DNA from: Flavobacteriaceae bacterium MAR_2010_188
GTDB lineage: Bacteria; Bacteroidota; Bacteroidia; Flavobacteriales; Flavobacteriaceae
Assembly: GCA_900104375.1 (NCBI GenBank)
Contig: LT629302.1
Span: 744,001-808,000, forward strand
DNA: 64,000 nucleotides
Direction: 5' to 3'
Shown here: positions 2,977-16,325 of the stretch, in pieces
Layout of the letters: every line of letters starts with the position of its first letter
Numbering within the stretch: the stretch's first letter is position 1
The notes under the pieces: model-generated
Database searches by the model: none
Told to the model about the DNA's origin: nothing
The model's input: the letters and a program-made list of their open reading frames with translations, nothing else
Translations under genes and position numbers: made by a program

Positions 2977-5055
2977 ATGAAAAAAAGGACTACACTTATA
3001 CACATAATCTTTTTTAGTTTTTTTGCCGCGACTTACGGCCAGGATAAAGAATTTAAAATGCCATCGTTAGACGACGGAAAAAATACGGTCGACCTAAAAT
3101 TTAATCAAGATGAAACCTATCCTGATCTAAAAACGACCTATATGGTTGGCACTATAGAAGACACTTTAAGATTTTCGGTAAAGAATATTGGTTTTGATCT
3201 TCTTCCCTTCAAGGTTATGGTAATTTCTCCCGACTTAACACAGGACATCAGGGTCATTTTGGTTAAAAACCACTGGAAGGATATTGCCAAGACAAAAAAG
3301 ACCAATGATGGCCTTTTTCAGGATGAATTTAGGACTGCCGGACAATTCGGTATTATGCTCATCGGTGCCAAACCCAACCTTCCTTTTAGGCTAGCGGTCT
3401 ACCACGGCGGGGTTGTGAAGCGCACCTCTCCTCTTTTTATTGCTGCCGCGGATTTTAAACCGGGTATTACTAATTTGAACGATACAGGTGCCAACTCAAC
3501 AGACGATGCGTCGAATTCAGGGTCTGAAGAAAAGGGAGGTAGTGCTGTGCTATGGATCATTGCTATTGCATTGCTATTGATATTCGCTTTACTTCTCTAT
3601 TTTTTATTTGTAAAACGCGCTAAAAATAAAGCGCTCTTAATATTACTCCTACCCACCACAATCATGTTAATGGCGGGTGGCGTTCCTTCAAATCGTGCAT
3701 CATTTTTAAATGGAGTGAAGTCAATGTCCAAAACCTTGAGCGGAGTATTTAGTCAGGCTCGCGACATGCAAGGTTTTATTGAAAAAATGAGCAAAGGGGC
3801 TCAGGATTCTGGTATTTTTGATAATCTAACCGGATCCGACCAAAACTTTGAACCGGATTTGGATCCAAATGGTCAGCCTCAATTACCTTCTTCTTGCCTT
3901 TCCGCCAGCCCATCCAGCAATCCGGACTCCAACAGAAATTCCAACAGAAACCAAAGAGAAGGAAATGAGGACAGCAGTGATTATCCCGATACTAAAAGCT
4001 CCAACGATGGTAGTTCCTCAACACCATCTACATCGACCATGACTCCCGCTGAAGTATTTGAAGATCCCTTTCTTGATAATGGAACAACTTCAGGTCCAAA
4101 CTTGAGGACACCAAAGTATGATAAAAACGGTAATCTTATAGATGCAGGGGACTATCCAGATACCCCCACCAAGGTTCCGACCCATCCAGTAACCGGTGAA
4201 CCGATATTGCCTGTTTTTGCAGGAAGGACCACTTCAAGCAGTGACAATTTAGTACCACCAAAATATGATAAGAACGGTTATTTAATAAATGCTGGTGATT
4301 ATCCAAATTCGCCTCCAACGGTACCTATAAATCCCGATACGGGCGAAGCAATGCCGCCAGTATTTGCTGATAATGGTGTGCAAGGTCAAAGCGACTCGCC
4401 AAGACAGCCTAAGTATGACAAAAATGGTAATCTTGTTGATCCGGGGGATTATCCTGATGCTCCCACAAAAGTTGGGATAGATTTTGAAAAGGGTGAACCA
4501 ATACCTCCCGTTTTTACGGGTGAAATGACCGTGGGTGGTCGCTCAGAAGAAGGTCTGGAACCCCAAGATGATAAAGAGGATTTGTCTACTGGTTCGGACA
4601 AAACTTCGGCAGAAGGGAATAAGAGGTCCAATTCCAATACCGGTAATAGAAATGGAAACGACGACACCAAAGATAATTCTGAGGGCTGTCAATGTTTGAA
4701 AAAAGCCTACGCAGACCTCGAAGAAACGCGTTATAAATTCGAAAAATTGGCGGTTATATTGAATATCACCAGTGAAGATGTAACTGCCTCTTTGGCCTTG
4801 GGGGATAACGTAAGTGGTATTCATGCCGTAAGTGGCCTCGCATGGCAAAACGAACGGGTAAAAATAGTACGGTCTTATGAAGAGTTTAGGGAAGCCTATG
4901 ATTCTAGGTATGAGCAATTAGTGGAAGAACTATATGCGCGTTTAATGGAAATAGATAGGTGTGAGTTAAAACTTGGTTTTGAGAACTGGTATAGTATCGC
5001 TGGCTTTATGTATTACGAATTCGCCAAGGCCAGATTCCACCGCAATGGCAGGTGA
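2977..5055 (+). CDS. Membrane protein with three PKYDKNG repeats
   Basis: A 692-residue protein with a signal peptide (cleavage near ATYGQ), a beta-rich periplasmic N-terminal domain, and two hydrophobic segments around residues 190-240. A low-complexity Ser/Asn/Pro region follows. Three repeats start at residues 379, 428 and 478 (period 49-50), each with PKYDKNG, GDYP and GEP-like or GEA-like then PVF. The last 110 residues are alpha-helical with Cys pairs (EGCQCLKKAY, DRCELKLGF). No family is recognised. The repeats diverge in codons, so they are old rather than recent duplications. Position between a lipoprotein and an OmpA lipoprotein suggests an envelope-spanning assembly, which is inference. 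Confidence 0.75.
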   Translation: MKKRTTLIHIIFFSFFAATYGQDKEFKMPSLDDGKNTVDLKFNQDETYPDLKTTYMVGTIEDTLRFSVKNIGFDLLPFKVMVISPDLTQDIRVILVKNHWKDIAKTKKTNDGLFQDEFRTAGQFGIMLIGAKPNLPFRLAVYHGGVVKRTSPLFIAAADFKPGITNLNDTGANSTDDASNSGSEEKGGSAVLWIIAIALLLIFALLLYFLFVKRAKNKALLILLLPTTIMLMAGGVPSNRASFLNGVKSMSKTLSGVFSQARDMQGFIEKMSKGAQDSGIFDNLTGSDQNFEPDLDPNGQPQLPSSCLSASPSSNPDSNRNSNRNQREGNEDSSDYPDTKSSNDGSSSTPSTSTMTPAEVFEDPFLDNGTTSGPNLRTPKYDKNGNLIDAGDYPDTPTKVPTHPVTGEPILPVFAGRTTSSSDNLVPPKYDKNGYLINAGDYPNSPPTVPINPDTGEAMPPVFADNGVQGQSDSPRQPKYDKNGNLVDPGDYPDAPTKVGIDFEKGEPIPPVFTGEMTVGGRSEEGLEPQDDKEDLSTGSDKTSAEGNKRSNSNTGNRNGNDDTKDNSEGCQCLKKAYADLEETRYKFEKLAVILNITSEDVTASLALGDNVSGIHAVSGLAWQNERVKIVRSYEEFREAYDSRYEQLVEELYARLMEIDRCELKLGFENWYSIAGFMYYEFAKARFHRNGR

Positions 5056-13717: not shown

Positions 13718-14221
13718 TTATTGATCTAACGCACTGATAGCCTTATCGTAATCCGGTTCATCACTAATTACTTCAACTTGTTCTGTATGGAGAATGGTTC
13801 CATTTTCATCGATGACGATAATGCAGCGAGAATGCAAAGCTTCGAACGGTCCATCTACAATATTAAGACCGTAAGTTTTGCCAAAATCCCCGGTTTTATA
13901 ATCTGAAAGTGCCACTACATTTTCAATGCCCTCATTTGCACAAAAACGATTTTGAGCAAAGGGTAAATCGCGCGAAATACACAATACCTTGGTATTATCT
14001 AATTGGGTTGCCTTCTCGTTGAACGTTCTTACAGACTGGGCACAGGTATTTGTATCGATACTTGGAAATACATTCAATATCAATCGACTTCCTCTAAAAT
14101 CTTTTAAGGTTTTTGTTGAAAGGTCTGAGGCGGTAAGAGAAAAATCAGATGCTTTTTTTCCAACGGGCGGCAGATCACTTGAAGTATGATTTTTATTACC
14201 TCTTAAGATTATATTGGCCAT
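13718..14221 (-). CDS. tpx: Thiol peroxidase
   Basis: A 167-residue 2-Cys peroxiredoxin of the Tpx class. The peroxidatic Cys60 lies in SIDTNTCAQS and the resolving Cys94 in LPFAQNRFC, the expected spacing for atypical 2-Cys Tpx. It reduces hydrogen and alkyl peroxides in the cytoplasm or periplasm with thioredoxin. The N-terminus has no signal peptide. It is the first gene of the minus-strand tpx-dgkA-ftsK run; its 5' side faces the gap with the TPP riboswitch, which reads in the opposite direction. Confidence 0.95.
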   Translation of the reverse strand: MANIILRGNKNHTSSDLPPVGKKASDFSLTASDLSTKTLKDFRGSRLILNVFPSIDTNTCAQSVRTFNEKATQLDNTKVLCISRDLPFAQNRFCANEGIENVVALSDYKTGDFGKTYGLNIVDGPFEALHSRCIIVIDENGTILHTEQVEVISDEPDYDKAISALDQ

Positions 14222-14375
14222 AGATTTCTTGTTTTTTATGAAGTGCTCAAAAATAATAAAATATTTAGGGAAAGAGGTTTTTATTAAGATTTATCGGTGC
14301 CCAATGCCATTGGTAAATGATATATAATTGAACTGTAATCTCTAAAAAATATTTGAGTTAAAATATTGCCAAAAT

Positions 14376-14407
14376 AAGAAAACGAAACATTTTTTTCGCT
14401 ATCTTTA
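14376..14407 (+). promoter_or_regulatory. Putative promoter for the riboswitch transcript
   Basis: TATCTTTA at 14400-14407 matches the Bacteroidota -7 box TAnnTTTG at seven of eight positions. A TTG lies about 20 bases upstream (14376-14378), the usual place for the -33 element. It would start transcription just at the riboswitch. This is weak, pattern-based evidence. Confidence 0.4.
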
Positions 14408-14410
14408 TTA

Positions 14411-14495
14411 TATCATATTGGGGTGCTTAAGTCAGACAGCTGAGATACATACCCATATTACTTAGATGGATAATGCCAACTAATGGAATATGATT
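14411..14495 (+). promoter_or_regulatory. TPP (thiamine pyrophosphate) riboswitch
   Basis: The THI-box is almost complete: GGGGTGC (14420-14426), GCTGAGATACAT then ACCC, and GGATAATGCCA in the 3' half, followed by a GGAA. The closing P1 stem pairs TCATATT (14413-14419) with AATATGA (14487-14493) perfectly. It binds thiamine pyrophosphate and normally switches off thiamine synthesis or uptake genes. Here no gene follows in its direction: the next gene is the M28 peptidase on the opposite strand. See the terminator at 14497-14540. Confidence 0.92.
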
Positions 14496-14496
14496 C

Positions 14497-14540
14497 ACAA
14501 AGGGAGCGAAGATTTAAATCTTGTTCCCTTTGTTCTTTTA
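14497..14540 (+). terminator. Rho-independent terminator behind the TPP riboswitch
   Basis: ACAAAGGGAGC (14497-14507) pairs with GTTCCCTTTGT (14523-14533) through one G-U pair. The interval between them, AAGATTTAAATCTT, is itself self-complementary and extends the stem to about 18 bp with one bulge. A short T-rich run (TCTTTTA) follows. It lies right after the riboswitch P1 stem, the normal place for an expression platform. The T run favours plus-strand termination, and the hairpin abuts the stop codon of the convergent peptidase gene. Confidence 0.8.
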
Positions 14541-16325
14541 TAGAGTTTTCAATTTAGATTGGAGGTTCTCCGAAAACTCATTTAATTGCTTGCTATGTCT
14601 CTGTAGGTCATTTTCTTTAATCCCGATATCGTTAACTGACATTAATGCCTTCTCATACCAATTGTTCCAACTTTTTAAAATTTTAATTTCGTCCATAGCA
14701 TTTTTACCAGAAGAAATTTCGGCCTTACTTAAAATAAACTCGATTTCTAAACGTTTTTCAGCAGCCTTCAAAATTTGTTGAGCAATAGCATTGGCGGTTA
14801 TTTCGTCGGAATTCAACAAGGTATACGCACTGACCAACGCCGCTGTTCCAACATTTTTCATGGTAGTTTTTGAAACCTTATCGATGCGGTCGTTATCGGT
14901 ATGATAAAATTGATCGGTGAAATGCCAAAGCAATAAACCCGGAATGTCGGAATCTAAAAATGGTGTATGATCACTTCCGCCTTCAAAAGGATTGGTGTTG
15001 ACTTCCCAGTTTTCTGCCGCTCCTTGGTCTTTAAATACAGAAAGGATAAAGTCATTCAGGTAATGAGGTTTCATATCCTTTTCTTCCAATACCTTGCCGC
15101 CCCATTCGGTATGCTTATCGTTACCTCGGGTATAAATAGCGCTGGGGTCTGGCATTTTTTCAATAAGGAAAGAGCCGCCGGTTAAAGCGGTATTTTCGCC
15201 TACCATGTCCAAACTGATTCCCCATTTGATTTCTGGTCGAGATTCCGGATTTTCTTTTATATAACGTCGGGTCGAAACTATCTCATCTCCCCATAAAAAG
15301 GTCAGGGTGCGGTCTAAATCTAGTTTATTCCTTTTTATTAAACCCGAAGTCGCCATTGCCATTTCTAGCTGTGTGCCAACCCCGGTTGCGTTGTCGTTAG
15401 CTCCCGGTTCTTGAATATGAGCACTAAATACCAAACTCTCGTTTGGAAGAGTCGACCCTTTTATAGTGGCTACCACGGTTAGTTCTTCCGATTTGTAGGA
15501 TTTGGTCTTTATATTCACCTTTAAGCTCACCTTTCCCTTAGATAATTCTTGTTTTAATTTTTCCTTTGCTTCATACGAAAGTGCAATCCCCCATGCTTTA
15601 TCGATATACTTGGCAGGTAAACTTCTAAATTGAATAGAGGTTATATTTTTTTCAGGTTGAAGATATGCTGGGTTATCGTAAGTCATAATCCCAAGAGCTC
15701 CTTTTTCAAATACATCTGCGCCGTATAAATAGTAGCCAGACATTTCAGCAAAAAGGATTTTGCCCGAAACATCTATTGTCTTTAAATCACTTTTATCTTT
15801 TATATAAATTACCTCAGCTTCAACTCCTGTATTTGGCGTCGATTTAGAATTAAGAAAGACCATATTTCGGTTGCTAGTTTGGTCTAAAAGTTTTGAGTTT
15901 TGCCCAACTATACTAACATTTGCTGAAACAGGTTCCCAAGTGGGATTATCCAATGCCCGTTTTTCAATTCTATAGGTCAATCGCTCTTGATTCGAACTTG
16001 TTTCTTCAATAACATAGCCCGCTTCTTCCAAATGCTTAGTAATCCAGTAAATACTTTCATTAAATCCAGTATTACCCACGACGCGCCAATATTTTTCAAC
16101 AAAAGCGGTTGTTTCGTAAGCTGTTTCGCCATCTATGATTGGTCTCACCAAATCAAAATAGCTCTGGGTGATTTCGCTAAGTTTTGGTGATTCTGATGAA
16201 GTGGATTCAGAAACGTTTACCTCGTTTTGCTGTTGGGTCTTGGTGCCTGAGCAAGAAATAAAAGCAGAGATGCTTAAAACAGTAAGAACGTAAGTGAAAA
16301 TGCTTTTAAGTTGAAAAATCTCCAT
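14538..16325 (-). CDS. M28 family metallopeptidase, lipoprotein
   Basis: A 595-residue protein with a lipobox (SAFISCSG, Cys25), so it is exported and lipidated. The C-terminal half holds the two-zinc exopeptidase site: SAHIQEPGANDNATGVG (His, bridging Asp), LWGDEIVSTRRY (Glu pair region), SLDMVGEN (Asp) and GGSDHTPF (His). An apical PA-like insert is plausible around residues 150-280. It probably removes N-terminal residues from peptides at the cell envelope. It follows the NUDIX gene by 6 bp on the same strand. Confidence 0.88.
   Translation of the reverse strand: MEIFQLKSIFTYVLTVLSISAFISCSGTKTQQQNEVNVSESTSSESPKLSEITQSYFDLVRPIIDGETAYETTAFVEKYWRVVGNTGFNESIYWITKHLEEAGYVIEETSSNQERLTYRIEKRALDNPTWEPVSANVSIVGQNSKLLDQTSNRNMVFLNSKSTPNTGVEAEVIYIKDKSDLKTIDVSGKILFAEMSGYYLYGADVFEKGALGIMTYDNPAYLQPEKNITSIQFRSLPAKYIDKAWGIALSYEAKEKLKQELSKGKVSLKVNIKTKSYKSEELTVVATIKGSTLPNESLVFSAHIQEPGANDNATGVGTQLEMAMATSGLIKRNKLDLDRTLTFLWGDEIVSTRRYIKENPESRPEIKWGISLDMVGENTALTGGSFLIEKMPDPSAIYTRGNDKHTEWGGKVLEEKDMKPHYLNDFILSVFKDQGAAENWEVNTNPFEGGSDHTPFLDSDIPGLLLWHFTDQFYHTDNDRIDKVSKTTMKNVGTAALVSAYTLLNSDEITANAIAQQILKAAEKRLEIEFILSKAEISSGKNAMDEIKILKSWNNWYEKALMSVNDIGIKENDLQRHSKQLNEFSENLQSKLKTL

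Follow-up and report, generated by a model that had tools for sequence, protein, structure and literature searches.

The window, a stretch of 64,000 nucleotides from Flavobacteriaceae bacterium MAR_2010_188, contains between two protein-coding genes a short element laid out like the aptamer of a thiamine pyrophosphate (TPP) riboswitch and closed by an intrinsic terminator (Table 1). On one side lies a divergent thiol peroxidase-like gene (tpx), and on the other a convergent gene encoding an M28 peptidase. As an earlier note on this DNA had observed, the element reads rightward and has no plus-strand target gene: no plus-strand gene comes next after its end at 14537, and the only plus-strand ORF of at least 60 residues that starts within 400 nt (14521-14781; 86 residues, TTG start) lies inside the minus-strand peptidase gene. 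The genome, 3.82 Mb in one contig, holds two TPP-like elements, the window copy and another at 3338542 (32 bits) that precedes a TonB-dependent receptor. The one other genome of the genus examined carries the unit at 72% identity and at a different site, again facing the end of a convergent gene. A ThiC gene was not found in the window's genome, which is therefore presumably dependent on uptake of thiamine or a precursor; synthesis of the thiamine pyrimidine is probably absent from this organism.

Table 1. Features of the predicted small RNA and its flanking genes, in window coordinates
Feature	Position	Strand	Description	Basis
tpx	13718..14221	-	thiol peroxidase-like gene (Redoxin), divergent	ORF list and Pfam
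GTTAAA box	14357..14362	+	55 nt upstream of the predicted start	motif count across copies
-7 promoter element	14400..14407	+	TATCTTTA; Bacteroidetes type TAnnTTTG, last base differs	motif count across copies; consensus from PMC9723704
Predicted transcription start	14412	+	first base of P1	spacing from the -7 box
Whole predicted small RNA	14412..14537	+	about 126 nt	match to covariance model R1 at 14409-14542, 139.2 bits, a self-trained score, this copy being among the six sequences on which R1 was trained
P1, 5' strand	14412..14419	+	helix 1	fold; both bases altered in 6 of 7 pairs
GGGGTGC	14420..14426	+	P2 5' strand and start of P3	both bases altered in 3 of 4 P2 pairs
CTGAGA loop	14440..14445	+	CTGAAA in 3 copies	exact in 50 of 53 aligned copies
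CCC	14452..14454	+	P2 3' strand	RF00059 alignment and pair counts
P5 with TAAT loop	14468..14477	+		TAAT in 52 of 53 copies
J4/5 dinucleotide	14480..14481	+	CU in place of canonical CG	cmscan alignment
P1, 3' strand	14487..14494	+	pairs with 14412-14419 as a perfect 8-bp helix	fold and pair counts
Intrinsic terminator	14497..14540	+	hairpin with stem CAAAGGGAGC/GTTCCCTTTG, and T-run	fold, stem pattern scan, copy alignment
M28 peptidase gene	14538..16325	-	convergent; stop codon within the T-run of the terminator	PF04389, E 4.4e-18

The earlier note had described a near-complete THI-box with a perfect P1 stem, followed at once by a strong hairpin terminator, and had proposed a search with the Rfam model RF00059. 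The search returned a match at 14409-14504 on the plus strand that spans model positions 1-105 (E 7.7e-8, 45.8 bits), the 8-bp P1 helix is indeed without mismatch, and the hairpin proper (14497-14533) starts 2 nt past P1 and leads into the T-run; the description as near-complete needs a qualifier at J4/5, which reads CU. Because the score falls below the gathering score of RF00059 (54.3 bits), a default Rfam scan lists nothing at the locus, and by that threshold the window copy is not a member of the TPP riboswitch family. The five other Rfam matches in that stretch (three snoRNAs, a microRNA and PsrR1; E 0.8-4.6) are noise. Folded together, aptamer and terminator (130 nt) reach -39.5 kcal/mol, against -23.9 +/- 3.4 for shuffled sequences (z -4.6; 0 of 200 as good). 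The aptamer alone, with the whole of P1, is only mildly better than its shuffles (z -1.7; 10 of 200 as good), so that it is homology and covariation that make the case for an aptamer.

Of 149 Flavobacteriaceae genomes, 140 had a TPP-like match at E 0.01 and only 44 had one above the cut-off. We read 61 elements, comprising the window copy, the other element of its genome, one from the sister genome and 58 below-cut-off matches from the 149-genome set; we class six of them as stand-alone units (window copy included), four as canonical leaders and 51 as leaders of receptor genes. R1, a covariance model built from the six stand-alone copies, was run over 397 Flavobacteriaceae genomes with strict filters, and among the matches listed its scores descended from 139 to 70 bits over 35 places before entering a mixed zone. 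By our own classing, the unit of promoter, aptamer and terminator occurs at at least 37 places, in at least 35 of the 397 genomes and under 25 genus labels; carriers thus amount to only about 9% of the sampled genomes among the matches listed, a lower bound, and distant copies may be missed, as reading of the R1 matches under 60 bits covered the two kept and the seven classed as leaders. Two copies (L133 and L134; 58.0 and 53.9 bits) were kept by eye for their terminators, though they score within the range of TonB-receptor leaders; two matches at 67.0 and 60.6 bits (genomes G187 and G357) were excluded, since in both the aptamer leads straight into the start of a TonB receptor, and seven others below 60 bits (L135-L141) were classed by eye as leaders. 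Two of the 35 carrier genomes hold two copies each (G209, at L123 and L126; G266, at L122 and L129). A third two-copy genome was observed at L237, with copies at 933-1067 and 3888-4021, about 3 kb apart.

A pattern scan of named genomes, using a search pattern that itself contains part of the motif, gave at least 118 loci. R1 scored between 68 and 137 bits in 24 of the 118 listed (21 among the first 80, 3 among the remaining 38), all of them titled or placed as Flavobacteriaceae. The named carriers are Aequorivita, Altibacter, Gelidibacter, Zunongwangia, Formosa, Winogradskyella, Thermobacterium, Arcticiflavibacter (now Psychroserpens), Oceanihabitans, Arenibacter, Robertkochia, Pricia, Gramella and Maribacter, and MAGs titled Flavobacteriaceae add further carriers; we take these genera to belong to the family, a placement that was checked for Arcticiflavibacter and Robertkochia. 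In 13 of the 24 named loci a weak second match of 23-35 bits lies on the opposite strand, and three other loci score 25-34 bits. The three pattern-scan loci from the genus of F. psychrophilum gave no R1 match. With two named loci dropped as identical to sampled ones, 56 distinct copies were available for counts; another four copies, two of them in the named locus L237 and one each in the named loci L231 and L241, stand outside the counts on 56, 53 or 37. Over 296 genomes of the order, a set that includes members of the family, R1 reported five at E 1e-10, and the sole one of these in another family (61.9 bits) is by eye of the receptor-leader type and lacks the terminator. ThiC is present in 3 of the 35 carriers versus 80 of the 362 other genomes (Fisher p 0.08), a contrast that is not decisive for thiamine auxotrophy as an explanation.

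The copies vary in a manner that maintains pairing. In a 37-copy alignment, which was fitted to R1 and is hence biased towards the structure, standard pairs occupy 94.6% of paired cells, changes occur on both sides at 25 of 31 pairs, and the covariation score is 0.501 versus 0.063-0.122 for slid partners. All six helices include at least one pair in which both bases have changed, seen for P3 in just one copy; in P2, GGGG/CCC gives way to AGGG/CCT, GAGG/CTC and GGAG/TCC. A MAFFT alignment built without structure (A4, from which L129, L133 and L134 were omitted) was not used for the pair counts. As judged by this comparison of sequences, the unit is under selection as an RNA.

Upstream of P1 the copies share a promoter signature. 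In F. psychrophilum, a member of the Flavobacteriaceae, PMC9723704 places the -7 box TAnnTTTG at -12 to -5, and the same spacing applied to TATCTTTA at 14400-14407 puts +1 at 14412. Of the 56 copies, 53 have TAnnTTW at 17-28 nt upstream of P2, where single-base shuffles give 14.8 +/- 3.2; GTTAAA stands 55-78 nt upstream of P2 in 37 of them, and shuffles of the same kind give 1.1 +/- 1.1. Transcription is predicted, on the strength of this Bacteroidetes-type box, to start at or near P1. The GTTAAA box, about 55 nt before the predicted start, is followed by T- and A-rich stretches, and is possibly an UP-type element or a regulator site. By sequence signature only, the unit possesses its own promoter and terminator outside genes. 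The ORF upstream of the RNA is on the same strand in 35 of 56 copies and on the opposite strand in 20, with none in view in one, and because of this mixture the RNA is not generally a 3' UTR.

The terminator hairpins of the 56 copies average -17.7 kcal/mol, and the stem is nearly fixed in sequence: in 37 copies, standard pairs make up 99.5% of the cells of the outer stem, and 39 of 53 copies have precisely CAAAGGGA as their 5' stem strand, most departures being compensated. The list produced by a simple terminator scan does not include the hairpin at 14497-14533. That the stem might be a general terminator sequence was considered and rejected, since among ten carrier genomes the exact stem pattern occurs solely at the RNA in the six that have it; in the other four it is absent, the stems at the RNA being different there. 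As terminators need no fixed sequence, a stem so nearly fixed makes a further role of the hairpin probable. A search for pairing in trans with the TonB-receptor leader, in four genomes, yielded no target: the genome's own leader was no better than shuffled ones, with 90 to 138 of 200 shuffles as good, in a weak test, as the program returns long, loop-rich duplexes.

In TPP aptamers the CTGAGA loop holds the pyrimidine ring of the ligand and the J4/5 'CG' holds its pyrophosphate. We take CTGAGA at 14440-14445 to be the pyrimidine-binding loop and the dinucleotide at 14480-14481 to be the J4/5 of the pyrophosphate site. Over 53 aligned copies, J4/5 is CG in two, UG in three and a gap in 13. Measured with RF00059, eight of the 37 copies exceed the gathering score (maximum 65.0 bits) and 29, the window copy included, lie below it; an E-value of 0.001 is reached by 30 and missed by seven. 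From sequence, the site for the pyrimidine appears intact and that for the pyrophosphate altered, and for this reason we call the element TPP-aptamer-like rather than assigning it to the TPP riboswitches. With the J4/5 'CG' so rarely retained, the ligand may not be TPP, and binding could also be weak or lost. If it were lost altogether, the element would be a conserved small RNA that reuses the fold of the TPP aptamer as a scaffold; the change of J4/5 in nearly all copies, and its shortening or pairing in several single-sequence folds, would then be accounted for. We think this unlikely, given a CTGAGA loop intact in 50 of 53 copies, TAAT in 52 of 53, and the eight copies of 37 that score above the TPP gathering threshold.

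The genes beyond the terminator reveal no common target. The next downstream ORFs of the 56 copies, which are mechanical calls of at least 70 residues and include some short ones that may not be genes, fall into 37 groups, with 40 convergent to the RNA and 16 codirectional; at two loci (L110 and L111) a tRNA gene lies between the RNA and the next ORF. When one member of each of the 37 groups was compared with Pfam, no thiamine family was found downstream; ten had no Pfam match, and the families recognised include release-factor, racemase, histidine-synthesis, chloride-channel, efflux and other proteins. Control of a downstream gene for thiamine synthesis or transport is not borne out by these representatives of the 37 groups. 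The M28 peptidase itself was detected at E 1e-60 solely in the window's own genome among the 21 searched (its own and 20 others).

These neighbourhoods bear directly on a proposal of the earlier note, that read-through at low TPP would yield a transcript antisense to the peptidase gene. A riboswitch acting in cis would, in general terms, read through when TPP is low, either antisense to a convergent gene or in the sense direction into a downstream one, an arrangement to which the convergent downstream ORF of 40 of 56 copies, and in the window the stop codon of the peptidase gene inside the T-run, would lend themselves. One platform for it would be pairing between the aptamer and the 5' arm of the terminator, and for the first 14 nt of that arm the best pairing over the 56 copies averages -5.9 kcal/mol versus -6.1 for shuffled aptamers. 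An antiterminator was rejected on this result, which likewise discloses, for that arm, no expression platform that swaps its pairing with the aptamer. With the gene on the far side varying by clade, and none of the 37 groups recognisably related to thiamine, we judge regulation in cis, and with it antisense read-through, to be improbable.

The earlier note had also suggested that a thiamine gene once controlled by the element had been lost. A dying riboswitch of this kind could be reconciled with a window copy that scores under the Rfam cut-off in a genome where ThiC was not found, but hardly with covarying helices, a conserved promoter and recurrence of the unit at unrelated sites; and in eight relatives the ORF next to tpx (by eye, next ORF only) is neither a thiamine gene nor one for a receptor, and R1 has no match at that site. 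A remnant was rejected on these grounds, and we consider it very improbable. The chance that an accidental resemblance merely adjoins an ordinary terminator, to which the mildly unusual energy of the aptamer alone (z -1.7) might point, is negligible in view of the RF00059 E-value of 7.7e-8 and a whole conserved family, and was already refuted by the R1 copies and their covariation.

We therefore favour, as the likely explanation, a small RNA gene that stands by itself: about 126 nt long, it would combine a TPP-type aptamer with a promoter and a terminator of its own, and would probably act in trans. Comparison of sequences indicates a conserved unit, its structure, a promoter signature and the lack of a common neighbouring target gene; from these we infer transcription, ligand binding and trans action of the small RNA. 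A Bacteroidetes-type promoter would direct transcription from the first base of P1, through the TPP-type aptamer, to a terminator that would act unconditionally. The small RNA would control no adjacent gene and would most likely act in trans. Once TPP or a closely related compound (thiamine, thiamine phosphate or a precursor) was bound, the aptamer fold would be stabilised, and the stabilised fold could alter the lifetime of the RNA or how readily it meets a partner mRNA or protein, the conserved terminator hairpin (CAAAGGGAA) being the likely contact with such a partner. The aptamer would in this way sense the thiamine state, and the RNA would exert its effect at other sites in the cell, by base pairing or by way of a protein. 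A short thiamine-sensing RNA had been offered in the earlier note as an alternative to gene loss; the comparative evidence favours that alternative, sensing itself being a prediction. More tentatively, and with appreciable doubt, we suggest that the Flavobacteriaceae possess small RNA genes of a free-standing, metabolite-sensing class, in which an aptamer that is part of no mRNA would begin at its first base pair, end at a fixed terminator and regulate in trans, its altered J4/5 sensing a thiamine compound other than TPP (thiamine or a precursor).

Riboswitch aptamers are usually read as parts of mRNAs. A conserved aptamer gene without an mRNA would, if true, represent a metabolite sensor that has evolved into an independent regulator, and it would do so in a small, concrete RNA that is open to testing. 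The numbers from the family (140 of 149 genomes matched at E 0.01, against 44 above the cut-off) also illustrate how covariance-model matches under a cut-off can conceal whole variant classes.

In the literature searched, to which most subscription journals were external, we found no description of a stand-alone TPP-type RNA, and the known systems that approach it do so in different respects. With the TPP riboswitch (RF00059) it shares the aptamer layout, GGGGTGC, and the CTGAGA and TAAT loops. It differs in being a stand-alone RNA without a downstream thiamine gene and without a visible expression platform, in the alteration of most of its J4/5 'CG' dinucleotides, and in the promoter signature placed directly at P1.

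A second comparison is with TPP-like elements that precede TonB-dependent receptors in flavobacteria (here type A leaders), for which OMthi of Bacteroides (PMC5613172) is a point of reference. The window's genome has one (L077:3043-3166), and 50 others were read in relatives (e.g., L059, L041 and L084), the 51 being drawn from below-cut-off matches with the own-genome element, also below, added. Like the stand-alone RNA, they lack the canonical J4/5 motif: CGN-purine is present in one of 51, and by eye J4/5 is shortened or paired. They may constitute a variant aptamer class with a different ligand. They differ from the stand-alone RNA in that a receptor-type ORF comes next in 50 of 51 and in that, by eye, they have neither a strong P1 nor a conserved terminator stem, whereas the stand-alone RNA mostly has ACTT for ACCT and carries its own terminator. 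Many receptor leaders (L059, L041, L089 and others) show by eye a common stretch downstream of the aptamer, such as AATAATTACCTCTTTTTATTCG, in which ACCYCTTTT is complementary to AAAAGGGGT at the 5' end of their aptamer; this complementarity is a possible expression platform. Two leaders from genomes of about 1.2 Mb (L131 and L132, in G187 and G357) have the start codon of the TonB receptor almost directly after P1, and their R1 scores, 67.0 and 60.6 bits, lie between those of the leader and stand-alone forms.

The HMP-PP riboswitch (thiS motif), as described in PMC6478431, resembles the stand-alone RNA in having a thiamine-related ligand and an aptamer closely tied to a terminator. Its aptamer, however, lies within the terminator and is found alongside genes for thiamine synthesis, whereas the stand-alone RNA keeps aptamer and terminator apart and is matched by RF00059. 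Precedents for the proposed mode of action are SreA/SreB, Rli55 and EutX, trans-acting RNAs yielded by riboswitch leaders, in each of which a short RNA with a metabolite aptamer has its effect at a distance from the site that encodes it (PMC8383071). Those RNAs arise from 5' leaders or regulated loci of Firmicutes through ligand-dependent termination or release; the stand-alone RNA differs from them in resembling a gene of its own, placed at unrelated sites.
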